A DNA stretch of 30,043 nucleotides from a virus, in IMG/VR virus record IMGVR_UViG_3300032053_005270, positions 1-30,043 of that record; one strand, 5' to 3'. The notes below the pieces were generated by a model. That model was not told where the DNA came from. It worked only from the letters and a program-made list of their open reading frames with translations, and ran no database searches. The position numbers were made by a program, and so were the translations under genes. Below are positions 1 to 24,462 of this stretch, piece after piece. Positions within the stretch are counted from its first letter, which is position 1. Each line of letters opens with the position of its first letter.

Positions 1-1
1 G

Positions 2-2140
2 ATGTATAAATTATGGAGAAATGCTTATCCTCTTTATACAGAGAATGTTATTAAATCTAGAGGTAATTATGACGTATTATATGGAATAGTGACTAATTTT
101 AATTGGAGTATGGAAGGTAGTAGAATTGTGTGTTCTACAGAAATAACTTCTAAAGATAGATTATATGCAGGTATTTCTAAAGATATGGGATTAACAGTAA
201 ATGATAATTCTGATAAAGATGCACCGCGACCAATTTTTCAAGCATTGAGAGATTTTATTGGTAAAAATGATACTTTATTAAATTTAAAATCTATAGCAGA
301 GTCAGAATTAAGTTCGGAATTAAAAAATATTGTAGATACTCCTATTTCAGGAAGTTCTAATTCTACAAAAAGGGGAATACAATCTCAAAATTTAATTTGG
401 TTAGATATTTTACGGCCTATATTTTCAGAACCAGATCCTAAAATTAGAGGAATGAAAGTTCCTTATATACACGGTGTATTTTCTGGAAGACCAAAAAAAT
501 TCTATAATGATCCTATCGGTCTTGGTCAACCATCTACAAATGATTTTGATTTTTCTACTACGGTAGATGCAAAAAGAGTTTGGATTAATATGGGAATGAT
601 TGTTGAGATTTTGAATTATTTTTCTGGATTAGATGGTGGAAAAGGGGAACCAATGTTTCAGGTTGATATTATGAATTCTGTAATTGGTGGACATCCCAAT
701 TTAATTTCTTGTAATAGAGACGTTTTAATTCCAAACGCTGGTGCTCCTAAATTTCATTTTGGTCTTGTAGGATTGCAAAAGTATGGTCTTAATCCAGACG
801 ATCCTAATTCGACAAAATATGAAACTCAATATATAGAACCACAGGAAGCACAAACTATAGCCGATAAAATACTAAGAAGAGTTTGTTATCAACGACAAAC
901 TGTGTGTTATAGAAACGATTTAGATTGGCCAATAAATTTTTTACGTTATAAATTTCAATCTTCTCCAAAAGGAGAAGATGGATACTTGGGTCATTCTAAT
1001 TATACAAATTTTTTCGCTTTTCCATCAATAGAAGATGTTAGATTACCTGTAAGTTCTACTGGGTTAACATATCCAAGAGGTGGATTTGTAGAATCAGGAA
1101 CATCAGGATTATTAAGTAATATTTATATAAGTTATTCAGCATTTAAAGAGACTATAATGGATCCGGATCCAAAAACAGCATCATATGTTGATGTTTACAA
1201 AAAAATATTAGGTATTTTAAATAATGCTGTGGATGGTTTTTGGGATTTAATATTAGTGGAAGTAGATCAAATAATGACAATTACCGATAAAAATTATCTT
1301 CCGACACAATCAAATTTAGGTCAAGATGATAATCCAACATATACATTTGATTATTTTGATGCTGATAGTATTATACGTTCTCTTAGATTTCGTCCTACTT
1401 TAACTGACGCTCAAGCAACAAGAGCAATATATGGAGAAGTTAATAATCCAAAATCAAAATATGTGTATGTAGATAAAAATGATCTTCTTGATTATAAGTT
1501 TAAAGATGCTATAGTTTATAATAGAAAAGATAGAATAGAAGGTGACAAAAATTCTGATATGGATAAACGAACTACAGCTGCACAACAGATAAAAGATGTT
1601 TTGGAAAATGCTCAAAAATTATCTACTTCTGAAGATGATGATAGTATTCAGATGACTATTAATAGAGGTGGTGTAAAAATCACAGGCGGCGTCGCTGCGG
1701 GTGAAAAACGCATAACAACTTTCATGAGTCCAACTAAAGAAATTCCACAAGGTCCATTTGAATATTTAAAACTTTGTTTACCTAATTCTGTAGGTAAACA
1801 GTTATTTAGATTATTAATGAATGATAAAGATTTCGAAAATAATCCAAGATATTGTGCTGTTCAACCAGGTATTACTCTTGAATTAACTATACAGGGATGT
1901 GGAGGATTAAGAACGTTTCAATATTTTTTAGTCAAAAATTTGCCAGAACCATATAGTCATCGTAATATTATTTTTAGAATACAAGATGTGAGACATGTGG
2001 TATCTCAGGAGGGATCTGGATGGGATACAATTATAACTGCTGGTATATTACCGTTAAGAAAATATATTACAAAACGATTAAAAGAACCAGTTGGTGGTTG
2101 GGCTCCAGAAGTTACAAAATCAACTATTCCTGATTCATAA
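2..2140 (+). CDS. Probable phage baseplate/tail structural protein (likely 5'-truncated by the window)
   Basis: A 712-residue reading frame is open from the first bases of the window. The ATG at position 2 may be internal, because no upstream sequence is available to judge it. The last 100 residues (about 600-695) hold beta-rich sequence of the type LELTIQGCGGLRTFQYF, then a strand ending in a conserved Trp (GSGWDTIITAGILPLRKYI). This resembles C-terminal domains of phage baseplate-hub and other tail proteins, where a protein oligomerises on the tail tube. That assignment is by impression of fold and motif, not by a database match. No signal peptide or membrane segment is visible. A short GC-rich patch near 1684-1712 encodes TGGVAAGEKR in otherwise very AT-rich DNA. 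The next gene (polymerase) starts 40 bases downstream. It is very likely a virion protein; the exact role is uncertain. Confidence 0.55.
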   Translation: MYKLWRNAYPLYTENVIKSRGNYDVLYGIVTNFNWSMEGSRIVCSTEITSKDRLYAGISKDMGLTVNDNSDKDAPRPIFQALRDFIGKNDTLLNLKSIAESELSSELKNIVDTPISGSSNSTKRGIQSQNLIWLDILRPIFSEPDPKIRGMKVPYIHGVFSGRPKKFYNDPIGLGQPSTNDFDFSTTVDAKRVWINMGMIVEILNYFSGLDGGKGEPMFQVDIMNSVIGGHPNLISCNRDVLIPNAGAPKFHFGLVGLQKYGLNPDDPNSTKYETQYIEPQEAQTIADKILRRVCYQRQTVCYRNDLDWPINFLRYKFQSSPKGEDGYLGHSNYTNFFAFPSIEDVRLPVSSTGLTYPRGGFVESGTSGLLSNIYISYSAFKETIMDPDPKTASYVDVYKKILGILNNAVDGFWDLILVEVDQIMTITDKNYLPTQSNLGQDDNPTYTFDYFDADSIIRSLRFRPTLTDAQATRAIYGEVNNPKSKYVYVDKNDLLDYKFKDAIVYNRKDRIEGDKNSDMDKRTTAAQQIKDVLENAQKLSTSEDDDSIQMTINRGGVKITGGVAAGEKRITTFMSPTKEIPQGPFEYLKLCLPNSVGKQLFRLLMNDKDFENNPRYCAVQPGITLELTIQGCGGLRTFQYFLVKNLPEPYSHRNIIFRIQDVRHVVSQEGSGWDTIITAGILPLRKYITKRLKEPVGGWAPEVTKSTIPDS

Positions 2141-2144
2141 TAAA

Positions 2145-2173
2145 TTGACATTTAGTTTGAAAAATGTTAATTT
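2145..2173 (+). promoter_or_regulatory. Possible promoter before polA
   Basis: TTGACA at 2145-2150 is a perfect -35 box. A 17-base spacer leads to TAATTT at 2168-2173, a poor -10. The polA start codon lies only 6 bases after the -10, so a transcript would be leaderless or nearly so. The -35 fit is strong and the -10 fit weak. Confidence 0.3.
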
Positions 2174-2179
2174 CTATAA

Positions 2180-3538
2180 ATGATAGAGTCGCAGGCAGAT
2201 TATAATAATTTCTTAAAAGAAACAGATAGTCACGATATTATTTTGTCTGTGATTGCTGTAGATGATAAGGAAATTCATTCTGCAATATCAAAAATATCTG
2301 CGGTTTTGATAAAAGATTTAGAAACGGATAAAATTTATATTTTGTCTGTTAATCATCCAGATTGTGTATATTCTATAGAAATAAATCAATTTATTTCTGA
2401 TATCCAAAGACCACGGAATTTATGGTGTTTTGATAAAAAATCAACAATTCAACTCTTACCAATTAAAAATCTTCTTGATATAGATTTATATACTCATTTA
2501 AAAGATGGATGGATTATAGATTTAAATTCTCATGAAACCACTGCTCATAAATTGATTAAAAGGAATTATCAAAAAGAAAGAAATATAAATTTATCTATTC
2601 CTCTTTTAAAACATAAAGAATTGTTTGAAAATGTTTGTGATGAATTGAGAATTAAAATTCAATTATCTGATTTAGATGTAGGATATTTAAAAGAAAATGA
2701 AATTATAATTGAAACTTTATCAGAATTAGAAATAAATGGAATTCATGTAAACCCCATTTATTTTAAAAATTATTTTAATGCAGAAATTTATGATAATAAT
2801 TTAGTATATAGTCAGTATAATATTTATTCTTCTACAGGACGATCTAGTAACCATTTTAATAATGTAAATTATGCTGCTTTAAATAAAAGTGATGGATGCC
2901 GAAAATGTTTTACTTCTCGTTACGGAGATGAAGGAAAGATGGTTTTAATAGATTATTCAGCATTTCATCCTCGTATAATCAGTTATCTTATTAAATTTCC
3001 TTTGGATATTGATACTGACATTTACACATATTTAGGAGAATTATACTTTCATCGTAAAGTTACAGAATATGATATGAATGAAGTTAAAAGTATAACCATG
3101 AGGCAGTTATATGGAGGTGTAGAGGAAAAGTATCAACATATCAAATATTTAAGTTATGTTAAGGAATTTATAGAAAAATATTGGGTAGATTTTAAGAAAA
3201 ATGGATATATAAAAACTCCATTGTTTGGAAGGTTTATTACAAATAAACATTTGTTAGATCCAAATTCATATAAATTACTAAATTATATTTTGCAAGCCAC
3301 AGAAACTGAAATTGCTGTTACGGCTTTAATGTTGGTTAATCGTTATCTAAAGACAAAGAAAACTAAAGCGGTATTATATACTTATGATTCTATTTTATTT
3401 GATTTTCATAAATCAGAAGGAAATGAGACATTAAAGGAAATTATTCGAATTATGAAGATGAAAGATAGATTTCCCATTAAAATATATGAGGGAGATTCTT
3501 ATGATTCGTTAAAAGAAAGCCTCAGTCCTTTAGGATGA
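2180..3538 (+). CDS. polA: Family A DNA polymerase, compact form
   Basis: Template-directed DNA synthesis for phage replication. All polymerase-core motifs of family A are visible in order: TGRSSN (219-224), motif A around the catalytic Asp in LIDYSAFHPRI (D258), motif B KSITMRQLYGG (303-313), the NYILQATETEI helix (368-378) and motif C YTYDSILFDF (400-409, D403). At 452 residues it is far shorter than T7 polymerase (about 700). The first 200 residues do not show a convincing three-motif 3'-5' exonuclease, so proofreading may be absent or supplied by another protein. The usual Glu of motif A (DYSxxELR) is replaced by His263 here. The C-terminal tail ESLSPLG and the stop codon lie inside a hairpin that resembles an IS605 right end. 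The start ATG has no clear ribosome binding site. Confidence 0.9.
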   Translation: MIESQADYNNFLKETDSHDIILSVIAVDDKEIHSAISKISAVLIKDLETDKIYILSVNHPDCVYSIEINQFISDIQRPRNLWCFDKKSTIQLLPIKNLLDIDLYTHLKDGWIIDLNSHETTAHKLIKRNYQKERNINLSIPLLKHKELFENVCDELRIKIQLSDLDVGYLKENEIIIETLSELEINGIHVNPIYFKNYFNAEIYDNNLVYSQYNIYSSTGRSSNHFNNVNYAALNKSDGCRKCFTSRYGDEGKMVLIDYSAFHPRIISYLIKFPLDIDTDIYTYLGELYFHRKVTEYDMNEVKSITMRQLYGGVEEKYQHIKYLSYVKEFIEKYWVDFKKNGYIKTPLFGRFITNKHLLDPNSYKLLNYILQATETEIAVTALMLVNRYLKTKKTKAVLYTYDSILFDFHKSEGNETLKEIIRIMKMKDRFPIKIYEGDSYDSLKESLSPLG

Positions 3539-3550
3539 GGATGAATTTCC
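3515..3550 (+). repeat. Solo IS605-type right-end-like hairpin (copy A) overlapping the polA 3' end
   Basis: A stem at 3520-3528/3533-3540 has a TTTA loop, one bulged A and one G-T pair, followed by GATGAATTTCC. The CCTTTAGG core and the trailing GATGAATT match the right-end hairpin of the nearby tnpB element and copy B at 4420-4454. The polA stop codon (3536-3538) lies within the stem. No tnpB is attached to this copy. Confidence 0.6.
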
Positions 3551-3613
3551 ATTACATTCCATTATACAAATGAACATATAGTTTGGGTCTTTTTCGACAT
3601 ATTTATTTTTATT

Positions 3614-4411
3614 ATGTTGAAGGATAGAATAATTGAAAAGGTTTTAAATGATGTCTTTGTAGATCCTCGAATAAGTGATGGTATCTTCGATATCAAAAAT
3701 AATGAACACGTAGGGTATTTGTGTGAATATCTAATAAATAAGGATATTGAACCAGAAATTGTGTATGAATTTTGTGATTTGCTTTTAGAAAAAGGTAAGT
3801 ACCCGCGCAGACAGGCGTACAACGCGAATGGCATCCTAGTAACATTTCCGACTCCTGAGTATAAAACAAGAGCTATACGTGCTGGCACTCATTTTGAAAA
3901 TGATCCAACGAGGGGACACCCAAATGTTTTTAATAATGAAACTCCGCCAGCAACAGAACCATCTTCGGCGGCACATATTGCTCAAGCATCACCAACCAAA
4001 ACGAATCTTCCTGTATCGACTTCTACTGCTTCTCCTCCTTCTTCAGAAAAAAGTGGAGAAGATACTTCTTCGGAACCAGCACAACAAATGCCTAATGCTT
4101 TTACTACAGCAGCACCACAACAATCTCCACAGGAAGAACCATCAGAACCAACTAAATTACCTTTACCTGCACCAACTCCTCCAGAAGAAAAGGATGCCAA
4201 TAAAAATGTAATCAAAAAAATGTTGAAGGGTGATGATTATATGCTGGAAACTAACGAAATATCTAAAACGTTAACCTTACAGCAACAAAGAGATTTAGCT
4301 AGTTATGTAAAAATTATCAGAGGAAAGTTGCGTCAAAATCCTGACGCACCATTAAGTTCTGCTTCATATGAAATAGAGTTGATGTATGGGATTATGGATA
4401 ACTTAACCTGA
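3614..4411 (+). CDS. Unknown phage protein with a Pro/Ser/Thr-rich central linker
   Basis: A 265-residue protein with three parts. Residues 1-100 are folded-looking and end in a run rich in conserved-looking residues (YPRRQAYNANG, then TFPTPEYKTRAIRAGTHFEN). Residues 105-195 are a low-complexity linker rich in Pro, Ser, Thr, Glu and Ala. Residues 195-265 are a predicted helical C-terminus. The architecture suits a protein joining two assemblies, but I do not recognise the family and assign no function. DNA encoding YPRRQAYNANG (about 3798-3836) is unusually GC-rich for this genome. It sits between polA and the tnpB element, with a right-end-like hairpin on each side (3515-3550 and 4420-4454). 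No strong ribosome binding site precedes the ATG. An antisense frame over its 5' half is considered a shadow. Confidence 0.7.
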   Translation: MLKDRIIEKVLNDVFVDPRISDGIFDIKNNEHVGYLCEYLINKDIEPEIVYEFCDLLLEKGKYPRRQAYNANGILVTFPTPEYKTRAIRAGTHFENDPTRGHPNVFNNETPPATEPSSAAHIAQASPTKTNLPVSTSTASPPSSEKSGEDTSSEPAQQMPNAFTTAAPQQSPQEEPSEPTKLPLPAPTPPEEKDANKNVIKKMLKGDDYMLETNEISKTLTLQQQRDLASYVKIIRGKLRQNPDAPLSSASYEIELMYGIMDNLT

Positions 4412-4419
4412 CGGAGCAA

Positions 4420-4454
4420 GAAATCCCCATCCTTTAGGTAGGGATGAATTGACC
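4420..4454 (+). repeat. Solo IS605-type right-end-like hairpin (copy B)
   Basis: ATCCC (4423-4427) pairs with GGGAT (4441-4445). An inner CC/GG clamp closes a TTTA loop (4433-4436), and GATGAATTGACC follows. It shares GAAA, CCTTTAGG and GATGAATT with copy A. It lies 9 bases after the preceding stop codon and upstream of tnpB, on the side where a left end would be expected, yet it has right-end character. Confidence 0.55.
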
Positions 4455-4474
4455 CAATAAAATAATAATGAAGA

Positions 4475-4502
4475 TTTAGAAAATAATATGACGTTTTCTA
4501 AA
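4475..4502 (+). repeat. Perfect 9-bp hairpin just upstream of tnpB (candidate left-end hairpin)
   Basis: TTTAGAAAA (4475-4483) pairs exactly with TTTTCTAAA (4494-4502) around a 10-base loop. It ends 14 bases before the tnpB ATG. IS200/IS605 elements carry a subterminal hairpin at the left end that their TnpA transposase recognises, so this is a candidate. It could also be a terminator or a hairpin that limits tnpB translation. Confidence 0.4.
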
Positions 4503-4516
4503 AATAAGTGATATGT

Positions 4517-5749
4517 ATGAATGTGATAAGAGCATTCAAATATAGATTAGTTCCAAATCAAGAACAAAAAGTTCTTTTGGAAAAACATTTTGGATGTACA
4601 CGTTTCATTTGGAATTGGGCATTGAATAAGAAAATGAAAACTTATCAAACATTGAAAAAGAATGTTTCACGATATGAACTTCAAGCAGAATTGCCAAAAA
4701 TGAAGAAAGGTGAACAACCTTGGCTTGCTGAAGTTGGTTCGCTTTCTATTCAATCCAAACTTGAAGATTTGGACAAGGCATATACTTCATTTTTTCGTCA
4801 TAAGAATGATTATCCAAAATTCAAATCCAAAAAGAATAGACAATGCTTTAGAGTCCCCCAAAATACCAAAACAGATTTTGATAATGGAAAAGTAGTAATT
4901 CCGAAGTTTCTTGATGGAATCAAATGTATTTTTGACCGAACATTTAAAGGAGATATTTCTTCGTCTTATATTTCTAAAACACCGACAGGAAAATATTTCA
5001 TTTCTATTTTAGTAGAAGATGGAAAAGAATTTCCAACTAAATCATTAGTGGAAGAAAAGACAACCATTGGAATTGATTTGGGGTTGAAACACTTTGCCAT
5101 ATTAAATGATGGATCAAAGATTGAAAATCCGAAACTATTGAAGTGGCATTTGAGAAAACTCAAAATACAACAACGAAGATTAACAACAAAAACAAAGGGA
5201 AGTAACACCAGAAAAAAACAACGAATTAAAGTGGCGAAAGTTCATGAACGGATAACTAATATCCGAAAAGATTTTCACCATAAACTCTCATACAAATTGA
5301 CTCACGATAACCAAGTGAAGTCCATCTGTATGGAAACTCTATCGGCAAAGGATATGTTAAAGAACATTTCGTTTGACGAAAGGGATGAAACCAGAAAACA
5401 AGAAAGAGCAAGACACAAGGCAATTTCTGATTCTGGTTGGATTTCCTTCCAAAACATTTTGAAATATAAATGTAATTGGTATGGGAAGAACTTCATCCAA
5501 ATTGGAAGATATGAACCATCATCCAAGTTATGTTCGTGTGGATATATTAATTACGAATTGACAATGGCAGATAGAGAATGGAAATGTCCTAACTGTGAGA
5601 CAACTCATGATAGGGATATTTTAGCAGCAAACAACATAAAATTTATAGGGTTGGAACAACCCGAATCTAAAGCCTCTGGACTGGAGAAATCTGGGATGAA
5701 AGAGGAAACTCCTGCCTTTAGGGGGGGTAGTTCAAAACAATATGAATGA
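4517..5749 (+). CDS. tnpB: TnpB RNA-guided endonuclease (IS605 OrfB)
   Basis: A programmable DNA nuclease of IS200/IS605 elements. It uses an omega RNA made from the element's right end to cut DNA beside a short target motif, which helps the element persist. The start chosen is ATG 4517, giving the family-typical MNVIRAFKYRLVPN; a GTG three codons upstream is less likely. The N-terminal helix-turn-helix region contains FGCTRFIWNWALN. All three RuvC acidic residues are present: D187 in GIDLGLKHFA, E273 in ICMETL and D367 in HDRDILAANNI. Zinc ligands are C339, C341, C357 and C360 (CSCG...CPNC). The protein appears complete and catalytically competent. Its last residues (PAFRGGSSKQYE) are encoded by the right-end hairpin plus flanking phage DNA, and the stop codon overlaps the start of the next phage gene. 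Confidence 0.93.
   Translation: MNVIRAFKYRLVPNQEQKVLLEKHFGCTRFIWNWALNKKMKTYQTLKKNVSRYELQAELPKMKKGEQPWLAEVGSLSIQSKLEDLDKAYTSFFRHKNDYPKFKSKKNRQCFRVPQNTKTDFDNGKVVIPKFLDGIKCIFDRTFKGDISSSYISKTPTGKYFISILVEDGKEFPTKSLVEEKTTIGIDLGLKHFAILNDGSKIENPKLLKWHLRKLKIQQRRLTTKTKGSNTRKKQRIKVAKVHERITNIRKDFHHKLSYKLTHDNQVKSICMETLSAKDMLKNISFDERDETRKQERARHKAISDSGWISFQNILKYKCNWYGKNFIQIGRYEPSSKLCSCGYINYELTMADREWKCPNCETTHDRDILAANNIKFIGLEQPESKASGLEKSGMKEETPAFRGGSSKQYE
5600..5736 (+). ncRNA. Predicted omega RNA scaffold at the tnpB 3' end
   Basis: In characterised TnpB elements the guide RNA derives from the 3' end of tnpB and the right end, with the guide copied from DNA beyond the element. Position and orientation fit here, and the terminal hairpin is present. 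The 5' boundary is a guess. The guide would begin about 5737 and read into the next phage gene. Confidence 0.35.
5704..5736 (+). repeat. Right-end hairpin of the tnpB element (copy C)
   Basis: GGAAACTCCTGCC, a TTTA loop and a GGGGGGG arm are followed by GTAGTTCAAA. Several pairs are G-T and one position is mismatched. GGAAACTCCT is shared exactly with copy D at 28965-29010. Confidence 0.65.
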
Positions 5750-6266: not shown

Positions 6267-7217
6267 ATGCTTAATATGTCAAAAATTAAAGAGCAACTCG
6301 CAGCGGCTAAAAAGACTGTGAAAAAATCCTCAAACACCACTTCTAGAGCAAAAGAACTTGTTTGGAAACCAGAAGAAGGAGAACAAACTGTTCGAATTAT
6401 ACCTCGTCCCGAAGAACCTGATAATCCGTTTATAAAACTTCTTTTCCATTATCAATTTAATGGTTCAGAGGGTAAACCAGTTACATATTTTAGTCCTGCT
6501 AATGTTGATAAAAAAGATCCTGTTATTGAATTATCAGAACGACTAAAGGCTTCTGGGGATCGTAAATTGTGGGGAAAAGGTAAATTTCTTGAACCAAAGG
6601 CAAGAACCTATGTTCCAGTCGTTGTTCGTGGTAAGGAACACGAAGGAGTTAAATATTGGGGTTTTGGAGTAACGATTTTTGATCAACTCGTTGCTGCTAT
6701 GGATGAATTAGATCTAGCAGGTGAAACTATCACCGATTTAAATAATGGATATGACATTAAGGTTATTTTTACTCCTGCTGAGAAATCCAATAAAACTTCT
6801 CTAGATGGACGTAAATTTCCTGAAACTGCTATAACGGTAAAGAGAAAGTCTTCTCCTGTAATTGATCCAACAAATCCTAGAGCTAAGGAGATTATGGAAA
6901 AAATTACGGCTAAACAACCGCTTCTAACAGAAGCTTGGGAATGTCCGGATTATAATGTCTTAGCAAAGGCATTAGAAGATTATTTAAAGAAAAGTGAGAA
7001 GGGTCGGGCTGTAGCCGATGGGCAGATAGTAGAAAAAGAAGACGAAACTATTATTCTTCCTACCGAAGATCAAATTGAAGCAGCAATTTCTCCAGTACCA
7101 GCTAATGTAGTTTCACCATCAGCTCAAAAGGCCGTTGAAAATGTAAAACCATCAACAGCACAACCAAATGAAATGGAAGCTGTTCTAGAGGAACTTTTTA
7201 ATGGAGACGGTAAATAA
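6267..7217 (+). CDS. gp32-like single-stranded DNA binding protein
   Basis: Coats single-stranded DNA and organises the replisome and recombination. The 316-residue length, a basic N-terminal segment (KEQLAAAKKTVKKSS), a central OB-fold-like core (residues 27-200, with WKPEEGEQTVRIIPRP and FHYQFNG) and an acidic C-terminal tail (EMEAVLEELFNGDG) follow the T4 gp32 plan. The acidic tail in gp32 recruits partner proteins. The zinc-binding Cys cluster of T4 gp32 is not visible. A purine-rich AAAGAAAG sits upstream of the ATG; a second in-frame ATG three codons later is possible. It has a strong promoter, a hairpin terminator after its stop, and the recombinase downstream, all consistent with an abundant replication protein. 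Confidence 0.85.
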   Translation: MLNMSKIKEQLAAAKKTVKKSSNTTSRAKELVWKPEEGEQTVRIIPRPEEPDNPFIKLLFHYQFNGSEGKPVTYFSPANVDKKDPVIELSERLKASGDRKLWGKGKFLEPKARTYVPVVVRGKEHEGVKYWGFGVTIFDQLVAAMDELDLAGETITDLNNGYDIKVIFTPAEKSNKTSLDGRKFPETAITVKRKSSPVIDPTNPRAKEIMEKITAKQPLLTEAWECPDYNVLAKALEDYLKKSEKGRAVADGQIVEKEDETIILPTEDQIEAAISPVPANVVSPSAQKAVENVKPSTAQPNEMEAVLEELFNGDGK

Positions 7218-7241
7218 TAAAACAAAATAAGTTAAAATAAC

Positions 7242-7270
7242 TTGAGTACTACCCCAAACAGGGGTAGTAT
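7242..7270 (+). promoter_or_regulatory. Candidate recombinase promoter built into the terminator hairpin
   Basis: TTGAGT (7242-7247), a 17-base spacer and TAGTAT (7265-7270) fit a weak promoter. The spacer is most of the terminator stem-loop. The recombinase ATG follows at 7293. Confidence 0.35.
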
Positions 7271-7275
7271 TCTTT
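7247..7275 (+). terminator. Terminator hairpin after the gp32-like gene
   Basis: A perfect 9-bp stem TACTACCCC/GGGGTAGTA (7247-7255 with 7261-7269) with loop AAACA is followed by TTCTTT. The T run is short, so termination may be partial. Confidence 0.7.
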
Positions 7276-7292
7276 ACATACATTATAAATTT

Positions 7293-7607
7293 ATGTCAAA
7301 AACAAAATCTATTCACATAGAAGAGACGATTGATAAAGTCAAAAAAGTAGAACGAGATGAACTTGCTGATCTTATTGTTGAAATAGCAAATAAATCTCAA
7401 AAAGATGGGGCTAGAGTCGCTTATTATTTGGATGAACACGAAGATCCATCCAATGTTTCAGATTGGGTATCTACCGGATCAACTCTTCTCGATCTCGCTA
7501 TTTCAAATCGAAAAAATGGTGGTTTACCTTCAGGAAGAATTATTGAATTAAATGGACTTGAAGGATGCGTTACCGAAGATACAAAAATTGAAGTTATTAT
7601 TGAATAG
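7293..7607 (+). CDS. RecA/UvsX recombinase, N-terminal half fused to a 13-residue N-intein
   Basis: Encodes residues 1-91 of the recombinase, then the first 13 residues of an intein. The extein includes the RecA N-terminal region (DWVSTGSTLLDLAIS, GGLPSGRIIELNG) and stops in the middle of Walker A at G-L-E-G. The next residue is Cys92, starting an intein block A (CVTEDTKIEV), and a TAG stop follows at 7605-7607. Joined to the downstream half, Walker A becomes GLEG+TGKS, a perfect GxxxxGKS. Trans-splicing would give a 384-residue protein, the normal size for UvsX. The start is ATG 7293; a TTG at 7242 would run through the terminator and is rejected. It acts in homologous recombination and recombination-dependent replication. 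The short N-intein recalls the atypically split inteins known from phage metagenomes. Confidence 0.88.
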   Translation: MSKTKSIHIEETIDKVKKVERDELADLIVEIANKSQKDGARVAYYLDEHEDPSNVSDWVSTGSTLLDLAISNRKNGGLPSGRIIELNGLEGCVTEDTKIEVIIE

Positions 7608-7704
7608 TTTTCCTATCCATATATTTATCTTGAAAAATTAATTAAAGGTGGATCTATTATTATAGATGATAAAAATTTAAAAAAATTGAAAAGAAGTTTT
7701 ACAT

Positions 7705-8961
7705 ATGGAAAAAACAAATATTATAAAAATTAAAGAGGTAAAAAACTTTTTAAAAATAGGAAAAACTATTAAAGTTAAAACAAAAGATGGAAAATTTACA
7801 AAAATTAAAAGATATGTTGATAAAGGAATTTTAAAAACTTTTAAAGTAGATCTTCAAAATGGATATACTATAAATGTTAGTAAAGATCATAAATTTTTTA
7901 CAAATGCTGGGTGGGTAGAATGTAAAAATTTAATACTTGGAAATCATAAGGTGTTTTGTGATGATGGAAAGTATTATAGTGTGATAAATATTACATTTAT
8001 AGGAAAATATAGAATTGTAGATATCGAAGTTGATTGTGATGATCATTGTTATTTTGGAAATGGTATGTTAAATCATAATACAGGAAAAAGTCTTATTGCT
8101 GCTCATATTCTTGCTAGTACACAAAAGATGGGTGGAGTTGGGGTTATGATAGATACGGAGAATTCCGCTGCTCCTGCATTTTGGACTGCTGTTGGTGTGG
8201 ATCTAACTAAAATTCCTTATATTCAACTCGTGACCGTCGAGGAAATTTTTAATCAAATTGAAAAGTTTATTGGTATTGTCCGTAAAAATAGTAAAGACCG
8301 TCTTCTTACCATTATAGTAGATTCTCTTGCTATGGCTTCTTGTGAAACCGAAATGGAATCAGAACACGGTAAAGATGGTTATAATACTTCAAAAGCTATT
8401 ATTATTAGTAAGGCTCTTCGTAAGATTACTGGACTTATTGGTCGTCAAAGAATTCTCTGTGTATTCACTAATCAACTTCGTATGAATATGAATGCTATGG
8501 CATTTGGTGATAAATTTGTAGTACCTGGTGGTAAGGCAATGGGATTTGCTGCTTCTGTTCGTGTTCGTTTAAATACGACGGGCCAATTAAAGAATTCTCA
8601 TAAAGATACCATAGGCAGTTCTTGTAAAGCTGTCGTAACAAAGAATCGTATGGGTCCGCCTAAGAGAATGGCAGAATTTGATATTCATTTTGATTCAGGA
8701 ATTCAAGATTTACAGAGTTGGTTGGACTTTTTGAAAAAGAATGAATTGATTTCTGGAACAGCTGCTAAGTATACTTTTAAATTAAATGCTGGAGAAATTA
8801 AATTATCAACAAATGAGTTTGTTGAAAAAGTAAATGCTGATCCTGTTTTTAAAGAAGAAGTATATAATTTAATTGCTGATAAATATGTAATGACATACCG
8901 TGATCCAAATAGTAAAATCGTTGAAGATTTAATTGTAGATGATACTTCGGAAGAGGATTAA
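7705..8961 (+). CDS. C-intein plus RecA/UvsX recombinase C-terminal half
   Basis: Residues 1-125 are the large part of the split intein, and residues 126-418 are the recombinase. Intein block B is visible at 58-76 (VSKDHKFFTNAGWVECKNL) and block F at 102-125, ending in the splice residues His124-Asn125, with Thr126 as the +1 nucleophile. The extein starts TGKSLIAAH, completing Walker A. It continues with GVMIDTEN, a Walker B-like LLTIIVDSLA, the FTNQLR region and GGKAMGFAASVRVRL, all typical of RecA/UvsX. It lies in a different frame from the N-half and starts with its own ATG, 97 bases after the N-half stop. AAAAGAAG about 9 bases upstream may serve as a ribosome binding site. The flap endonuclease gene starts 2 bases after its stop. 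Confidence 0.9.
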   Translation: MEKTNIIKIKEVKNFLKIGKTIKVKTKDGKFTKIKRYVDKGILKTFKVDLQNGYTINVSKDHKFFTNAGWVECKNLILGNHKVFCDDGKYYSVINITFIGKYRIVDIEVDCDDHCYFGNGMLNHNTGKSLIAAHILASTQKMGGVGVMIDTENSAAPAFWTAVGVDLTKIPYIQLVTVEEIFNQIEKFIGIVRKNSKDRLLTIIVDSLAMASCETEMESEHGKDGYNTSKAIIISKALRKITGLIGRQRILCVFTNQLRMNMNAMAFGDKFVVPGGKAMGFAASVRVRLNTTGQLKNSHKDTIGSSCKAVVTKNRMGPPKRMAEFDIHFDSGIQDLQSWLDFLKKNELISGTAAKYTFKLNAGEIKLSTNEFVEKVNADPVFKEEVYNLIADKYVMTYRDPNSKIVEDLIVDDTSEED

Positions 8962-8963
8962 AT

Positions 8964-10031
8964 ATGTCTGACAATACATCCAGTAAATTATGGTCTTTTT
9001 TTGATACTATTAAAGATGAGAAAACTTTAATAGAAACACAGGGGATTATGGAATCTAAACAAAAAGAGGTATTAATAATTGATGGATATAATACCTACCT
9101 TCGCGCTTTTTGTGTAATTCCTACCTTAAATGAAGATGGATTACATGTTGGAGGTATATCTGGATTTTTTAAAAGTATAGGATATGCTATAAAATTATTT
9201 AGACCAGATAAATGCGTTATTGTATTTGATGGGGTAGGTGGATCTGTAAAGAGAAGAAAAATATATAGTGAATATAAAAATAAAAGAAGAACAAAAATTA
9301 GATTAAATAGGATATATGATGAAGATATATCGTTGGGAAGTGAAGAAGTAAGTTTAAAAAAACAGTTAGAAAGAATCGTTAGATATTTACAATATCTTCC
9401 TGTATATGTTTTAAGTATAAATGGTATAGAAGCAGATGATACCATTGCATATTTGGCTCTTGATTATTATAAAGATTATAAAACGACGATAATGAGTTCA
9501 GACAAAGATTTTATACAGCTGGTTAACGATAATATTAGAGTTTGGTCTCCCACAAAGAAGAAAATATACATTTTTCAAGATGTTTTGAATGAATATGGAT
9601 TAATTCCTATAAATTTTGTTTATTTTAAATGTTTAATGGGGGATGTATCTGATAATATTGCCGGTGTTCGTGGATGTGGTCCAAAAACGATAATAAAGGC
9701 TCTACCTCTATTATCTACTGGTCCGACTAATCTAAATCAAATTAAAGAGTATTGCCAGAAGAATAAAGGGGGTTTAAAAGTATATTCAACCATTTTGGAT
9801 AACTGGGATATAGTAGAAAGGAACTATTCTCTAATTCAATTAACTGATACGTATGTAAATACCATTTCTCAATTAAGTATCAAAGAATTATTAGATAAAA
9901 ATCCTTCAAAATTTGATTCTTTTGCTCTATCTAAATTGATTTTAAATGATAAATTATGGAATTCTTTTCCAAATTTTAGAAATTGGGCTGATGACGTATT
10001 TGGAAGAATGGATAAAATATTGAGAGGATAA
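8964..10031 (+). CDS. 5'-3' exonuclease / flap endonuclease (FEN family, T4 RNase H-like)
   Basis: Removes RNA primers and 5' flaps during lagging-strand synthesis. The acidic residues that bind the two metal ions are visible along the chain: D40 (LIIDGYN), D89 (VFDG), E156, D158 and D159 (GIEADDT), D180 and D182 (SSDKDF), and D227 and D230 (GDVSDN). The helix-hairpin-helix DNA-binding motif GVRGCGPKTII follows at 234-244. Lys/Arg-rich KRRKIYSEYKNKRR (96-109) matches the arch region. The start is supported by GAGGA before ATG 8964; an internal ATG at codon 30 is possible but has poor spacing. It is tightly linked to the recombinase, with 2 bases between them. The family A polymerase here lacks its own 5' nuclease domain, so this protein probably supplies that activity. 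Confidence 0.92.
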   Translation: MSDNTSSKLWSFFDTIKDEKTLIETQGIMESKQKEVLIIDGYNTYLRAFCVIPTLNEDGLHVGGISGFFKSIGYAIKLFRPDKCVIVFDGVGGSVKRRKIYSEYKNKRRTKIRLNRIYDEDISLGSEEVSLKKQLERIVRYLQYLPVYVLSINGIEADDTIAYLALDYYKDYKTTIMSSDKDFIQLVNDNIRVWSPTKKKIYIFQDVLNEYGLIPINFVYFKCLMGDVSDNIAGVRGCGPKTIIKALPLLSTGPTNLNQIKEYCQKNKGGLKVYSTILDNWDIVERNYSLIQLTDTYVNTISQLSIKELLDKNPSKFDSFALSKLILNDKLWNSFPNFRNWADDVFGRMDKILRG

Positions 10032-11210: not shown

Positions 11211-12011
11211 ATGGAAGACAAAGACACACTACGCATTTACGGAGCTGAATTTCAAATAAAATGTATTGTATCTTTATTAACAGATAAATCTTTTTTAGAA
11301 CGAATATATGATTTATTAAATGTTGAATATTGGGATACCGATGCAAATAGATGGATAGTTGAGAGAATAAAGGAATATTTTATAAAATATAAATCCCTTC
11401 CTACATCTACAGCATATAGAGTTATGATTAATGATGTAGAAAATGATGTATTAAAAACGTCGATTAATGAACAATTAAAAATTATTGCTTCCAAAGTAAA
11501 AGATACAGATCTTCCTTATATTAAAGAACAATTTCTTGAATTTTGTAGAAATCAAAAACTTAAGAATGCTATTATTAGTTCGGTTGACTATTTGAAGTTG
11601 GGTCAGTATGACCAAATTAAACACGTGGTTGATGAAGCAATGAAAGCTGGTATGGAAAGAAATCTCGGACACGAATATCTGGTTGATATGGATAAAAGAA
11701 TGTCTGAAATGGCTCGTAATTGTGTCAAAACAAACTGGCCTTTAATTGATGATTTATTAGATGGTGGGCTTTCTGGAGGAGAATTAGCATTTGTGTGCGG
11801 TGGGCCGGGTACAGGAAAGTGTGTTGGCTCAAATACAAAAATAGAAATTCAATATACTGAAATAGGAATACCAATTGTTGGAAATTCCGGTAAAGAATAT
11901 ATTATTTGGATCAATCCTTTTAAAAAATATGATTTCGGAAATAATTTGGGGGAATTATATGGTTGGCAAGTATCACAATTGCTGGATCCGGTAAATATAC
12001 CTAAAAAATGA
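11211..12011 (+). CDS. gp41/DnaB-like helicase, N-terminal half fused to a 63-residue N-intein
   Basis: The replicative helicase unwinds the fork and works with primase. Residues 1-203 are the helicase N-terminal domain and the start of the RecA-like motor (WPLIDDLLDGGLSGGELAFVCGGPGTGK), ending exactly at the Lys of Walker A. Cys204 begins the intein (CVGSNTKIEIQ), and the frame runs 63 residues before its stop. The missing Ser of GGPGTGK+S is the first extein residue of the downstream half. Trans-splicing would give 462 residues, close to T4 gp41. A homing endonuclease gene follows after 32 bases, so the gene is fractured into three frames. The N-intein carries block A only; block B lies in the C-half, so the split is earlier than in classic split inteins. 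Confidence 0.9.
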   Translation: MEDKDTLRIYGAEFQIKCIVSLLTDKSFLERIYDLLNVEYWDTDANRWIVERIKEYFIKYKSLPTSTAYRVMINDVENDVLKTSINEQLKIIASKVKDTDLPYIKEQFLEFCRNQKLKNAIISSVDYLKLGQYDQIKHVVDEAMKAGMERNLGHEYLVDMDKRMSEMARNCVKTNWPLIDDLLDGGLSGGELAFVCGGPGTGKCVGSNTKIEIQYTEIGIPIVGNSGKEYIIWINPFKKYDFGNNLGELYGWQVSQLLDPVNIPKK

Positions 12012-12043
12012 GTTTTTTATGTTTTGATTAATATTTATTTTAT

Positions 12044-12976
12044 ATGAATGAAAATAAACTTAAATGTCAAATTTGTGAATTTGAAGGGAAAAATTTAGTA
12101 GCTCATATAATTCATAAACATAAAATAACAATAGATGAATATAGAAATAGATTTGGTGATGTATTATTTGTTATAATGCCTAAAGGTTGGTCTGAAAAAA
12201 GACAAGTGTATATGAAACAATATTGGGCAAATAAAGATAATATAAAAAAAGTATCTGATATACAAAAAAATGGATCGTCGATTTTTACTATTAAATATTG
12301 GATTAAAAAAGGATTGACAGAAGAAGAAGCAAAACAAAAAGTATCCGATATACAAAGAAAAAATGGGCAAAAATATTTGGATAAAGGAAATGTAAGAGAA
12401 AATTCTCGGTTTTGTGTCGAATATTGGATAAAAAGAGGAAAATCTGAAATTGAAGCAAAATCAATTATTAGTGAAATACAATCAAAATTATCTGCAAAAT
12501 CTCCGAAATTTACTGGTCACAAAAGGACAGATGATCAAAAACAAAGAATATCTTCTTCATTAAAAAAAATGATAGGTAAAGTTGGTAAAGGAAAGTGGGC
12601 ATCTCACTTTGGAACATTTAATGGAAGAAGTAAAATAGAGATTGAGTTTTACAACTATATAAAGGAAAATATTGATAATGAAGTTGTTGCTAATTTTTCA
12701 ATAGGTAATTATATTGTAGATGTTATTAAAAATAAAAAAATAATAGAATTTTATGGAGATTTTTGGCACGCTAATCCATCTATTTTTTCTTTGAATGAGT
12801 CGTTAAAAGGTTATGAAAAAGAAGAAATTAGATTGGTAGATGATATTTGGAAAAAAGATGAAGTAAGAATTTCGTGGTTAAAAAATAATGGGTATGATGT
12901 AATGATAATTTGGGAAAGTGATTGGAATAAAAATAAACAAGAATGTATTGAAAAAGTTAAAAAATATTTGTTATGA
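12044..12976 (+). CDS. Vsr-like (EDxHD) homing endonuclease inside the split helicase gene
   Basis: A selfish endonuclease expected to cut intein-free helicase alleles and spread the intein by repair. The N-terminus has a zinc-finger-like CQICEFEGKNLVAHIIHKH (C8, C11, H21, H24 or H26), followed by ITIDEYRNRFG as in MucR/Ros-type fingers. Two tandem repeats follow (residues 80-104 and 123-147) of the form F-x-[IV]-[KE]-YWIK-x-G...EAK...[DE]IQ, then a NUMOD3-like RTDDQKQRISSSLKK. The C-terminal nuclease domain (195-310) shows SKIEIEFYNYI, YIVDV, IIEFYGDFWHANP and WLKNNGYDVMIIWESDW, the Vsr-like fold of endonucleases found in fractured genes with split inteins. Its stop overlaps the C-half start (ATGA), so expression is coupled. 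Confidence 0.85.
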   Translation: MNENKLKCQICEFEGKNLVAHIIHKHKITIDEYRNRFGDVLFVIMPKGWSEKRQVYMKQYWANKDNIKKVSDIQKNGSSIFTIKYWIKKGLTEEEAKQKVSDIQRKNGQKYLDKGNVRENSRFCVEYWIKRGKSEIEAKSIISEIQSKLSAKSPKFTGHKRTDDQKQRISSSLKKMIGKVGKGKWASHFGTFNGRSKIEIEFYNYIKENIDNEVVANFSIGNYIVDVIKNKKIIEFYGDFWHANPSIFSLNESLKGYEKEEIRLVDDIWKKDEVRISWLKNNGYDVMIIWESDWNKNKQECIEKVKKYLL

Positions 12977-14157
12977 TATATAAAAGAGAAAAAACAGAAG
13001 TAATTAAAATTAAAGATTTATTTTTTAAACTTGGTATAGAAAATAAAGAAAATGCTATATGTGATATAAAATTTCCATTAAAAGTGAAAACACCATATGG
13101 ATTTAAAAAAATAGTTACTGCTTTTAGAACAGAAAAACAAACATCAGTAACATCATATTTTAAAAACAATAAAACTCTCAAAACATCTAAGAATCATTTA
13201 TTAAAAGTTAATGGTAATTGGAAAAAAGTTAAAGATATAACTAAAAATGATATTATAGAAACAAAAACAGGAACTACTTCTATTATTAGAAAGCATATAG
13301 GAAAAGAAGAAATATTTTATGATATTTCTGTTGAAGATGTAAATTGTTATTATTCTAATAATATTTTATCACACAATTCTTGGATTTTAACAAAAATGGG
13401 AGTAGAAGCAATGAAACAAGGAAAAAATGTATGCCATTTTACATTAGAATTAAACGAAAATTATGTAGGACTTAGATATGATGCTTGTTTTACAGGAATT
13501 GAATTCCAAGATATTAGAAAAAATATTGAAATAGTTAAGAAAAAAATAGAACCAATTAAGGGAAAACTTTTTATTAAGTATTTTCCAATAAAAACTGTTT
13601 CTGCACAAAATCTTAAAATGCATATAGAACGAATACAAATGATTACAGGTAATAAAATTGATTATGTAGTAGTAGATTATGCTGATTTATTAAAACCTAT
13701 AAATGCTGATAAAAATTCTAATTCTTATACTGAAGCTGGAAATGTTTATGAAGAACTGAGAACAATGGCAGGAGAATCACAAATTCCTATTATTTCTGCG
13801 AGTCAAGCAAATCGCGGCAGTGCTCATGCTGATACTGTACAAGGACATGATGTGGCAGATTCATATAGAAAAGTAATGATCGGAGATTTTGTATTTTCTT
13901 TATCTAGAAAACCGGATGATAAAATGAGCAATACTGCTAGAATACACATTATTAAAAATCGATTTGGTCCGGATGGAAAAACTTTACCTACATTTTTCAA
14001 CGCTTCTAATGGTGATATTAAAATATATGAAGAAAATTCTCCTCAAGGTATAGAATTAAAACAAAAAATGAATGATCACGAAGATCGAACCAAAGATGTA
14101 ATGCGTGAACATTGGAATAAAATCAAAAAAGATAGAAATTTTTCTGAAGATGAATAA
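12973..14157 (+). CDS. C-intein plus gp41/DnaB-like helicase C-terminal half
   Basis: Residues 1-135 are the C-intein and 136-394 the helicase. Intein block B is at 71-93 (TSKNHLLKVNGNWKKVKDITKND) and block F at 115-135 (YDISVEDVNCYYSNN...), ending ILSHN with Asn135 as the last residue; the +1 residue is Ser136. The extein starts SWILTKMGVEAM, continuing directly from Walker A. It has the helicase motor motifs CHFTLELNENYVGLR (H1a-like), Walker B IDYVVVDYADLL and IISASQANRG (H3-like), then a Lys/Asp-rich tail typical of gp41. The ATG overlaps the endonuclease stop by 4 bases. The intein region is complete, so the protein pair should be able to splice in trans. Confidence 0.9.
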   Translation: MIYKREKTEVIKIKDLFFKLGIENKENAICDIKFPLKVKTPYGFKKIVTAFRTEKQTSVTSYFKNNKTLKTSKNHLLKVNGNWKKVKDITKNDIIETKTGTTSIIRKHIGKEEIFYDISVEDVNCYYSNNILSHNSWILTKMGVEAMKQGKNVCHFTLELNENYVGLRYDACFTGIEFQDIRKNIEIVKKKIEPIKGKLFIKYFPIKTVSAQNLKMHIERIQMITGNKIDYVVVDYADLLKPINADKNSNSYTEAGNVYEELRTMAGESQIPIISASQANRGSAHADTVQGHDVADSYRKVMIGDFVFSLSRKPDDKMSNTARIHIIKNRFGPDGKTLPTFFNASNGDIKIYEENSPQGIELKQKMNDHEDRTKDVMREHWNKIKKDRNFSEDE

Positions 14158-14277: not shown

Positions 14278-15147
14278 ATGAATAGTATTTTATTGAGTTT
14301 AAATAAGAAGTGCTGGCACCAATCAGAAAAACAACCAACCGATTTTTTAAAAAATTATTGGTTTAATAAGTGGTATGACCATTATTGTAACCTAATAAAA
14401 AGAAATAAACTTAATAAAGATGATTTTTTAAACTGGCAAAAAAATGGGATATCAAAAGAAAAAATTTCCTACTTATTAAAATGTAGTAGAAAAGATGTAA
14501 ATTTTTTAATATCTTTGTTTTCTGTTAAGGTGGATTCTTTTAATACAAAATCTAAGCATATTACTAAAAAAGAATTATACAATCTTTATATTATAAAAAA
14601 AGTTCCAACAACTGAAATATCAAATTTATATAAAATATCTTTTTGTACTATTATTGCGTTATTAAAAAAATACAATATACCCATAAGAAATACAAAAGAG
14701 TGGTGGTTAGTATTTGATGAATTAAAAAAATACAAAATATCAAAGAAAATATTTGAACACGGATTATATTCTAATGGAAAAAAATATGAAGACCATATAA
14801 AAAATAGGGATGAGTATAAACATTATAGAAGAAAAATTGAAAAGAAAAGTTTAAAAAATGCTATAATGTTTGATTTAAATGATATAAATAAAAGAGGCCA
14901 TCAATCTATTTTCAATAGTATGTGTATAGACCACGTAATTCCTATTAAATTTGGTTATATCAACAATATATCTCCTGATAAGATGTCAGACATATCAAAT
15001 CTTATTATGATTTCCCATACAAAAAATTCTAAGAAAAATTCAAAAATAACTAAATCTTCTATTAAGTTATATAAATGGTGGGTGAAGTCTGGATTTTTAA
15101 ATAAAACAGAAATGATGAATAAACCGATTTTAGGAAAAATATTATGA
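14278..15147 (+). CDS. HNH-type freestanding homing endonuclease candidate
   Basis: A 289-residue basic protein. Two helix-turn-helix-like segments lie at about 57-80 (GISKEKISYLLKCSRKDVNFL) and 108-136 (KVPTTEISNLYK...KKYNIPIR), suiting DNA recognition. The C-terminal part contains CIDHVIPIKFG (216-226; D218, H219), then DISNLIMISHTKNSKKNSK (238-256; N241, N250), which fits the DH...N...N-x-K plan of degenerate HNH nucleases. Its stop overlaps the start of the ribonucleotide reductase (ATGA). In T4-like phages freestanding HNH genes often sit beside the gene they cleave in rivals, so the reductase gene is a plausible target. No ribosome binding site is clear. Codon use is even more A-rich than the neighbours, suggesting acquisition. 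Confidence 0.7.
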   Translation: MNSILLSLNKKCWHQSEKQPTDFLKNYWFNKWYDHYCNLIKRNKLNKDDFLNWQKNGISKEKISYLLKCSRKDVNFLISLFSVKVDSFNTKSKHITKKELYNLYIIKKVPTTEISNLYKISFCTIIALLKKYNIPIRNTKEWWLVFDELKKYKISKKIFEHGLYSNGKKYEDHIKNRDEYKHYRRKIEKKSLKNAIMFDLNDINKRGHQSIFNSMCIDHVIPIKFGYINNISPDKMSDISNLIMISHTKNSKKNSKITKSSIKLYKWWVKSGFLNKTEMMNKPILGKIL

Positions 15148-20818: not shown

Positions 20819-21078
20819 GTGGTTGTATTATTTACTCTTGTTTTCATAGGGTTTTTCTTAAATGATAATTTTGCTTTATCTGTGATATCTCTATCATAAT
20901 AGAATATGAAAATTCCTGGTATATGTTTTTTTAATGATGTTATGGCGGCATCTATTTTATTTAAACTTCCATATTGTATAGGCATATCCATTTCATCGTC
21001 ATATAATGCATATAAAACTGTTGATAGTTTAAATAAATGGTAATTTTTTTGATTTTTATCTATTGATTTTAGTGTCAT
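20815..21078 (-). CDS. Small unknown protein on the minus strand
   Basis: An 87-residue protein using ATG at 21076-21078; an alternative start lies 11 codons upstream but would overlap the divergent gene. The sequence has a plausible folded composition: NYHLFKLSTVLYALYDDEMDMP, then KIDAAITSLKKHIPGIFIFYYDRD and a basic C-terminus. It runs convergently toward the long hairpin and divergently from the DruA-like gene, so it forms its own short unit among plus-strand genes. No known motif is seen. Confidence 0.55.
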   Translation of the reverse strand: MTLKSIDKNQKNYHLFKLSTVLYALYDDEMDMPIQYGSLNKIDAAITSLKKHIPGIFIFYYDRDITDKAKLSFKKNPMKTRVNNTTT

Positions 21079-21089
21079 ATAACATAAAT

Positions 21090-22298
21090 ATGGATAACTT
21101 ATCACAAACATTTTTTGATGTTTCTTCTGAATTTGATGAAGCCGCTGAAAAAAAGGTTTTAATTGAAAATATGAATTATTTAAAAAGTTTAGATGTACGT
21201 CTTTTAACTTTTAGAAAAAAATGGGATGAAATTCAAAGTTTGGAAGATGCTTTTATAAATAACTCTGGTACTATAAAGGCTAAAATTTGGTATCCGACTG
21301 ACATAAATAATGAATTTTCTACAATAGAAGAAATACAAAATCTTAATCCCCATATAAAAATAGTATCTACTCCTCAAGATGAAGAGGATTGGTTACAACT
21401 TCGAACATTTTGTCATTCTGCTGAATACGAACAAACTCCTGGACGATATGTTAAAATTCTTGTTTTTCATGAAGATAGAATATTAGGATTTTGTGCTATT
21501 GCTAGTGATATTCCATCATTGAAGCGTCGGGATGAATGGATCGGTTGGAATAAAGATGTAAGAATGGCCAGAAATGGAGAAGGAACATTATTAAATTCTG
21601 CAGTAGGAACCACGATTGCTCCAACTCAACCACTAGGATATAATTTTATAGGTGGCAAATTAATTTCTGCAATGTTGACAACTAGTGTAGTCAGAGATTG
21701 TTGGTTTAATAGATACAATAATGTATTATCAGGCATAACCACAACTAGTCTTTATGAGAGCGAGAAGAAAAACCAAGGTTCTCAGTATGATGGTATGGAG
21801 TGGTGTTGGAAAAAATGTGGTGTATCGGCTGGAAAAGTTCCAATTAAACCAGATGAATATATTTATAAAAAGTGGCATGATTGGATTAAAGATAATAGAT
21901 ATGAAGAGTATATTAAAATGATGACTCAAAAAGAAGGAGTTTCGGGCCCTGTTACTAGTTCTAAAATGAGAGTTTTAAATATGATTTTTAATTCTGTAGG
22001 AATTAGAACTCAAGATTATAATCACGGATTTCAAAGAGGAATTTTTTATTCATCTTTCCATAAAAATACTAAAGAATTTTTATGTGGAAAAATAAAAGAA
22101 TCAGATTTAATATTAAAAGATAGATTTAAAAAAGATATAGATGGAATATTAGAATGGTGGAAATCTCGTGCCATTAATAGATATAAAAAACTTAAATTGG
22201 AAGGAAGATTAAAACCTAATAAGTTATTCTATAATAAAATGTATGGTATGTCTTATGAAGATGCTAAAAAAGAGTATTTTCAGGATATAGGAAGATAA
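21090..22298 (+). CDS. DruA-like (DUF4338) protein 1
   Basis: A 402-residue protein. Residues 121-200 show the DUF4338 hallmark: a short beta strand pair ILGFCAIASDI, then LKRRDEWIGWNKDVRM (144-159) and GYNFIGGKLISAMLTTSVVRDCW. Later KKCGVSAG corresponds to the loop before the family C-terminus. DruA is a component of the bacterial Druantia anti-phage system, and DUF4338 proteins also occur in phages, where their biochemical activity is not established to my knowledge. The start chosen is ATG 21090; an earlier in-frame start overlaps the divergent gene. A second, shorter family member lies at 23707. A role in DNA modification or counter-defence is inference only. Confidence 0.65.
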   Translation: MDNLSQTFFDVSSEFDEAAEKKVLIENMNYLKSLDVRLLTFRKKWDEIQSLEDAFINNSGTIKAKIWYPTDINNEFSTIEEIQNLNPHIKIVSTPQDEEDWLQLRTFCHSAEYEQTPGRYVKILVFHEDRILGFCAIASDIPSLKRRDEWIGWNKDVRMARNGEGTLLNSAVGTTIAPTQPLGYNFIGGKLISAMLTTSVVRDCWFNRYNNVLSGITTTSLYESEKKNQGSQYDGMEWCWKKCGVSAGKVPIKPDEYIYKKWHDWIKDNRYEEYIKMMTQKEGVSGPVTSSKMRVLNMIFNSVGIRTQDYNHGFQRGIFYSSFHKNTKEFLCGKIKESDLILKDRFKKDIDGILEWWKSRAINRYKKLKLEGRLKPNKLFYNKMYGMSYEDAKKEYFQDIGR

Positions 22299-23706: not shown

Positions 23707-24462
23707 ATGTTAAACGATGGGGAACCAAAAAAATTCTTTGATTATTCTGGATCGATAGAAAATCGATATCCTGTATTTTTGGATTTGGTTAATTCTCCAT
23801 CAAAAATGAAAATATTTGTAAAGAATATAAATGATTTTCATAGTTATAAAAAATTCGCGTCATCCCCGACTCGCAACCTGAGATTTAATATCTACGAAGA
23901 AAAAAGTGGTAATAATATAGGATCGATAGGATTGTCAAGTGCCACTATTGCTATTAAATGTAGAGATGATTATATTGGTTGGAATAAAGATCAAAGATTA
24001 AAAAATCTTGGTATGATAGCGAGCAATTCCAGATTTGTACTTGTTAAAGATAGAATTACTATTAAAAATGTTGGTAGTATGACATTGAAAAGATTAGAAA
24101 TTGATGGTGGTAAATATTGGAAAGAAAGGTATGGCCAAATTCTGACGTTGATTGAAACTTTCATACAAATGGAAAGAGACAAAGAATATAATGGACAACA
24201 AAAAAGATCTGGTTCTGTTTACAGAGCAAGCAACTGGACCGAGGTTGGTATGACCAGTGGAGTATCTATAAAAAAGTCGCCTGATGCCCTCTGGCGCAAA
24301 GAAAAGGGTATAAGAGGTGAGTTGGCTAGGAAGGATCTAAAAGCAGCAAGAGAAAAATATGGTTATGCTGATGGACAAGAATATATTGTTTCTAAATCTT
24401 TACCTAAAATAATGTTTATTAAACCGTTGATAATTGATTGGAGAGAAAAATTAACGGTTTAA
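23707..24462 (+). CDS. DruA-like (DUF4338) protein 2
   Basis: A 251-residue protein matching the DUF4338 core closely: IGSIGLSSATIAIKCRDDYIGW split over 71-92, RLKNLGMIASNSRFVLV (97-113), VGSMTLKRL (122-130), WKERYGQILTLIETF (138-152) and GSVYRASNWTEVGMTSG (169-185). The [RC]D-x-[YW]IGW, N-x-RF, ETF and YRASNW motifs are the family's most conserved points. It is shorter than the paralogue at 21090 and closer to cellular DruA in motif spacing. Two GC-rich patches (about 23849-23878 and 24276-24298) stand out. Its end overlaps by 12 bases the end of the convergent minus-strand gene. The function in a phage is unknown. Confidence 0.75.
   Translation: MLNDGEPKKFFDYSGSIENRYPVFLDLVNSPSKMKIFVKNINDFHSYKKFASSPTRNLRFNIYEEKSGNNIGSIGLSSATIAIKCRDDYIGWNKDQRLKNLGMIASNSRFVLVKDRITIKNVGSMTLKRLEIDGGKYWKERYGQILTLIETFIQMERDKEYNGQQKRSGSVYRASNWTEVGMTSGVSIKKSPDALWRKEKGIRGELARKDLKAAREKYGYADGQEYIVSKSLPKIMFIKPLIIDWREKLTV

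Follow-up and report, generated by a model that had tools for sequence, protein, structure and literature searches.

Organization of the fractured uvsX locus

The virus record IMGVR_UViG_3300032053_005270 of IMG/VR (positions 1 to 30,043; this whole 30,043-nt stretch is referred to below as the window) carries, directly downstream of a gp32-like gene, a uvsX recombinase gene divided between two open reading frames (ORFs). The first (7293-7607, + strand, ATG to TAG) encodes a 91-aa UvsX N-extein (7293..7565) whose end, NGLEG, contains the first half of the Walker A motif. This is followed by the N-terminal intein part (IntN) of 13 aa, CVTEDTKIEVIIE (7566..7604), which begins with Cys1, represents block A and is kept in relatives. 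The N-half is closed by a TAG stop (7605..7607), in place of which relatives have TAA or TGA. After a spacer of 97 nt (7608..7704), the C-half ORF (7705-8961, +) begins in a different frame, at the first ATG of a frame open from position 7690. Its N-terminus reads MEKTNIIKIKEVKNFLKIGK, and its C-terminal intein part (IntC) of 125 aa (7705..8079) contains block B (SKDH) and block F, and closes with DDHCYFGNGMLNHN (LNHN, i.e. a C-terminal HN). The sequence then resumes as TGKSLIAAHI, the start of a 293-aa UvsX C-extein (8080..8961, stop codon included). Promoter and terminator scans of positions 7200-8200 gave no excess over shuffled sequences.

Both halves match the Pfam RecA family (N-half, E 3e-4; C-half, E 6.5e-35), and the C-half also matches the UvsX-like PHROG (E 1.1e-47); the RecA core, the Walker A motif and family similarity thus identify the gene as a UvsX/RecA recombinase. 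The joined exteins (91 + 293 = 384 aa) align without a gap at the junction with the intein-free UvsX proteins of loci L004 (385 aa) and L021/L022 (383 aa). The P-loop is uninterrupted (GLEG/TGKS or a near variant; slashes mark insertion points) in L004-L008, close relatives with 65-79% identity, and in almost every one of 80 further UvsX loci, one of which, L053, is split. Since the P-loop of relatives is uninterrupted, the insert lies exactly within Walker A, at a conserved site for which intein-free alleles exist. This confirmed that the window uvsX gene is interrupted precisely in the P-loop, between GLEG and TGKS.

All residues expected of a class 1 intein (Cys1, SKDH, LNHN and Thr+1) can be read in the window and are invariant, or nearly so, throughout the family described below; the window IntC also matches intein sequences. 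That the insert might instead be an RNA intron was considered, given that similar endonucleases are generally known to reside in introns as well. However, no Rfam match was found within the window, and the insert is conserved as a protein with intein residues and matches intein folds, so that we regard the chance of an intron as negligible.

A previous sequence-only reading of this DNA had proposed a recombinase gene fractured inside Walker A by a split intein, with a 13-residue N-part ending at a stop codon, a C-half carrying blocks B and F, ending in HN and resuming at TGKS, and exteins that restore GLEGTGKS and a 384-residue UvsX when joined. These proposals held: the two ORFs break at GLEG/TGKS and relatives conserve the arrangement, with 13 or 14 residues in their N-parts; the C-half features were read directly at 7705-8080; and the alignment to intein-free UvsX is free of gaps at the junction. 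The eroded endonuclease tail in the spacer, the unsplit relatives and the apparent P-loop site of VidaL, all described below, go beyond that reading.

Split and unsplit relatives at the same site

No related loci were found when the bare window IntC was used as the query, and a single scan of genome contigs yielded no relative; it took extein profiles and degenerate DNA patterns, applied to viral contigs, to reach the split family. Locus L053, from another metagenome, has the same layout (GLEG, CVTEDTIIEVIID, TAA, 219 nt, an IntC of 124 residues, TGKS), with 60% identity to the window across IntC and the first extein residues. A profile built from these two loci retrieved L104 and L105. A degenerate DNA pattern built on GLExCVTEDT matched 22 contigs (16 split, 6 unsplit); of the intein it specifies no more than the first six residues, and it leaves the length unconstrained. 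IntN was exactly 13 residues long in 14 of the 16 split contigs and 14 residues long in the other two (L117 and L134). A C-terminal motif pattern added others, including L135 (IntN of 14 residues) and L136/L137/L141 (13 residues). For L115 and L118 the 13-residue IntN was seen and the C-half lies outside the examined stretch. By our own count, a split after residue 13 or 14 occurs in about 15 distinct lineages, excluding the window, with some of the contigs being near-copies. The arrangement is therefore a family with unsplit relatives, rather than the single oddity seen from the window alone.

Across this family the IntN stop codon is TAA, TGA or, in the window, TAG; the spacers range from 9 to 1137 nt, and IntC occurs in all three phases relative to IntN. 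Such variable spacer length and phase point to two separate proteins and not to recoding. The shortest spacer is that of L123 (IntC 8400-8774, N-half 8787-9095, both on the - strand), where IntC starts 9 nt after the IntN stop, in the same frame and with a second stop in between; these 9 nt contain AGAGG.

Joining of the two halves by the ribosome, through TAG readthrough combined with frameshifting, is barely credible. The N frame does stay open for 42 codons past the TAG, but this stretch is accounted for by an endonuclease remnant (see below). In addition, the window IntC lies in another frame, the IntN-IntC phase in relatives may be 0, 1 or 2, TAA and TGA are used besides TAG, and a suppressor tRNA was not found in the window. 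Reassignment of TAG is also unlikely, because TAG terminates other window genes and relatives carry TAA or TGA instead. A potential slip site, A AAA AAC near 7711-7717, was rejected, since as read from the sequence a -1 slip misses the IntC frame.

Unsplit (cis) relatives occupy the same site in L104, L121/L122, L125, L130/L132, L140 and Salicola phage SCTP-2 (L013). L104 reads CVTEDTIIDVIIE followed directly by MKKEKIKISEIKSLL, so that residues 13 and 14 are continuous where the split versions break; the 13 + 125 residues of the window therefore make up a whole mini-intein. The occurrence of cis inteins at this site would also allow the window intein to be continuous in reality and its split to be an error of assembly or sequencing. 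Such an error would have to have introduced a spurious TAG as well as a spurious indel, and in independent contigs of other metagenomes the same break follows residue 13, different stop codons are used and an endonuclease ORF intervenes. As the layout is the same in L053 and in many other loci, neither chance nor misassembly is a satisfactory explanation, and we consider an error very improbable.

Position of the split in the predicted fold

In an AlphaFold2 model of the cis relative L104 (pLDDT 94.4), residues 7-12 and 15-20 form β-strands. Because these strands flank the 13/14 position, the break falls on the turn of a β-hairpin (β2-β3), and the split position in the predicted fold is the S1 site, at the tip of this hairpin. 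S1 is the named split site of VidaL and PolB16 (PMC13014065). The model matches many intein structures, with VidaL, a comparison already suggested by the sequence-only reading, at the top (TM 0.89, 1.5 Å). The predicted fold of L104, together with the sequence matches of the window IntC, assigns the window intein to the HINT fold; two ORFs with a break right after the predicted β-strand 2 make it an atypical split of the S1 type. When folded alone, the window IntC gave a pLDDT of 81 with a low-confidence C-terminus, a prediction compatible with a partner lacking its IntN.

The PDB chain of VidaL (6vgv/6vgw) is flanked by ESG...SGK, and its closest relative among the inteins compared is that of SCTP-2, which interrupts the P-loop of a RecA/UvsX-like protein (GDSG/C...HN/SGKS). 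Judging from these flanks and this nearest relative, VidaL probably comes from the same P-loop insertion site as the window intein.

An endonuclease-like ORF between the halves

In three members of the family, an intact ORF of 361-368 residues lies between the halves: L105 (1907-2992, in a 353-kb record), L117 (2573-3676, - strand) and L128 (1802-2887). Its 3' end overlaps the IntC start codon in each case. The ORF contains the motif SSLE...PDIV...YEIKP, which by eye resembles that of PD-(D/E)xK nucleases. The L105 protein has no Pfam or PHROGs family match and no match among 50,697 annotated phage records, and a profile of the family matches T7 endonuclease I weakly (E 0.09). Other members retain C-terminal remnants of decreasing length, of 163 (L119), 92 (L127), 74 (L053), 58 (L131) and 47 residues (L134).

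The window belongs to the same series. Its spacer, read after the TAG, gives YPYIYLEKLIKGGSIIIDDKNLKKLKRS (7614..7697, +), which aligns without gaps to the C-terminus of the L105 endonuclease (alignment score 75, mean for shuffled sequences 32, z 8.7). At the DNA level the spacer resembles those of L053, L105, L117 and L124 (z 6-9). From this similarity, the window spacer is identified as holding the last ~28 codons of the endonuclease ORF. The alignment to the L105 C-terminus thus indicates a fractured gene from which the endonuclease has been almost wholly deleted; this ~28-codon remnant is all that the window shows of it, with the nuclease type read from the motif.

Endonuclease-like sequence was also noticed upstream of the intein C-part in two other loci, in both near the same early position: in the terminase of Vibrio phage Va1 (L011), inside the intein ORF, and in a P-loop gene of LR756500 (L012), in another frame.

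Selection and descent

The pN/pS ratio pooled across split members is 0.30 for IntN codons 7-13. These codons were used alone because the search pattern biases the ratio for the whole IntN (0.16), which was set aside. For the window exteins compared with intein-free L004, L021 and L022, the ratios are 0.26-0.38, which are rough values as dS is near saturation. Such ratios indicate purifying selection on IntN codons 7-13 and on both exteins. The window clusters with the same three intein-free loci in the C-extein tree (support 96/95), and its end branch is short (0.13) compared with that of its sister L004 (0.29). Given this short branch, the window UvsX has no apparent sign of a decaying protein.

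These data bear on the proposal that the intein is decayed and non-functional, the split being pseudogenization and UvsX having been lost or replaced by another recombinase. The endonuclease itself has indeed decayed, and the record shows no more than 30 kb of the genome. However, the exteins are open and conserved and have evolved no faster than intein-free relatives, every splicing residue is kept, and many other lineages have this layout too, which makes decay unlikely.

The nearest relatives of the window intein, by path, are L124 and L053, whereas its nearest exteins belong to other loci; this mismatch fits horizontal movement of the intein. The intein tree is poorly resolved and mixes split and cis forms (e.g. 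cis L104 with split L126 and L127, support 100/99). It forces at least two changes between the split and cis states, in a direction that it does not fix.

Proposed mechanism

From what was observed (the anatomy of the locus, its family, the empty sites, the cis relatives, the endonuclease series and the split position in the predicted fold), we infer the splicing itself, endonuclease homing and the order of events. We are highly confident in the reading of the window uvsX as a fractured gene with a naturally split class 1 mini-intein at the Walker A P-loop, in which the split was most likely made by an endonuclease and trans-splicing would yield a 384-residue UvsX. It is very probable that the split intein reunites the two halves as proteins. 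UvsX-N with the 13-residue IntN, and the 125-residue IntC with UvsX-C, would be translated separately, and IntN would complete the HINT fold by supplying its missing N-terminal strands. Cys1 would then undergo the N-S shift, Thr+1 would accept the N-extein and the terminal Asn would cyclize, to give UvsX with GLEGTGKS. The split most likely arose by insertion at S1 of a free-standing, PD-(D/E)xK-looking endonuclease ORF, presumably encoding a homing enzyme; in the window phage, deletion would since have left ~28 C-terminal codons of this ORF, with the split retained.

Several points count against this interpretation. Pfam and NCBIfam intein matches score below their curated cut-offs (the Intein_splicing match of the C-half is weak, E 1.4e-4), the catalytic type of the endonuclease is taken from a motif read by eye and its homing is putative, and, with a record that spans 30 kb, the remainder of the genome may encode another recombinase.

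Other elements in the window and related contigs

The window contains a second fractured gene (11211-14157, +), whose product, a DnaB/gp41-like helicase, is interrupted at the P-loop (GPGTGK/C...HN/S). It comprises a 63-aa IntN (11820-12008, +), an ORF with a Vsr/DUF559-like end, likely an endonuclease (12044-12976, +), and an IntC (12973-13377, +) followed by the helicase C-half. The related phage contig L144 carries this helicase intein in unsplit form. Three apparent inteins are present in its positions 1-5182: two in UvsX (one at the P-loop and one at a second site further on) and the unsplit one in the DnaB-like helicase.

Further window genes are an IS605 OrfB/TnpB-like gene (4508-5749, +), an ORF with a match to an HNH endonuclease PHROG (14278-15147, +), which immediately precedes a ribonucleotide reductase gene, and two DruA-domain genes (PF14236) at 21063-22298 (+, E 3e-17) and 23707-24462 (+, E 4e-19).

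Comparison with known split inteins

Natural atypically split inteins have IntN parts of 15-37 residues, with 16 in VidaL and 15 in PolB16 (PMC13014065), the latter being "the shortest characterized to date" (PMC10189870). The 13-residue IntN of the window lies outside this range, which is a described range and not a defining limit (PMC13014065), and is shorter than any natural one that we found described. The suggestion in the sequence-only reading that 13 residues is at or below the natural minimum agrees with these figures, as do its approximate lengths for known short-N inteins (~25 for AceL-TerL and ~16 for VidaL, against published values of 25 and 16; PMC13014065). Among the papers searched, a set that covers the intein literature incompletely, none combined a split intein with UvsX.

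PolB16 OarG is likewise a natural S1 split with a very short IntN (15 aa; PMC10189870), but it resides in a PolB-type polymerase, uses Ser1/Ser+1 chemistry and has an IntN two residues longer. AceL-TerL and GOS-TerL are natural, atypically split inteins of phage type with a short IntN (25 aa in AceL; PMC13014065), but they are split later, after helix α1 (the S2 site), and belong to terminase genes. That an even shorter IntN can work is known from M86, an artificially split Ssp DnaB intein with an 11-aa IntN (PMC13014065), although this is a man-made split of an engineered cis intein.

VidaL shares the S1 hairpin split and Cys1 with the window family, and its flanks suggest that it belongs to the P-loop recombinase site. 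It differs in having an IntN of 16 instead of 13 residues and shows ~21% identity to L104 across the structural alignment; we know of no endonuclease remnant in VidaL.

A natural IntN of 13 residues is easily made by peptide synthesis, and the ~15 lineages are candidates for semisynthetic protein ligation. The family also presents unsplit, intact-endonuclease and ever-shorter-remnant states at one site in one gene. Because all of these states line up, the proposal that an endonuclease creates split inteins becomes directly testable and, if it is true, the making and keeping of split inteins could be traced step by step. More generally, we think it probable that an endonuclease family not yet described inserts into the S1 hairpin of phage P-loop recombinase inteins and so produces active split inteins with an IntN of 13-14 residues, that the split outlasts the endonuclease, and that intact, eroded and unsplit states coexist.

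Fractured genes with split intein parts on the two gene halves and an endonuclease ORF in between were reportedly described by Dassa et al. in 2009, mainly in phages; their endonucleases are said to be largely Vsr-like and their splits to lie at the usual place. The window family would differ from these in its break at S1, in a nuclease of another, unlisted family, and in the many members that retain only a remnant of it.
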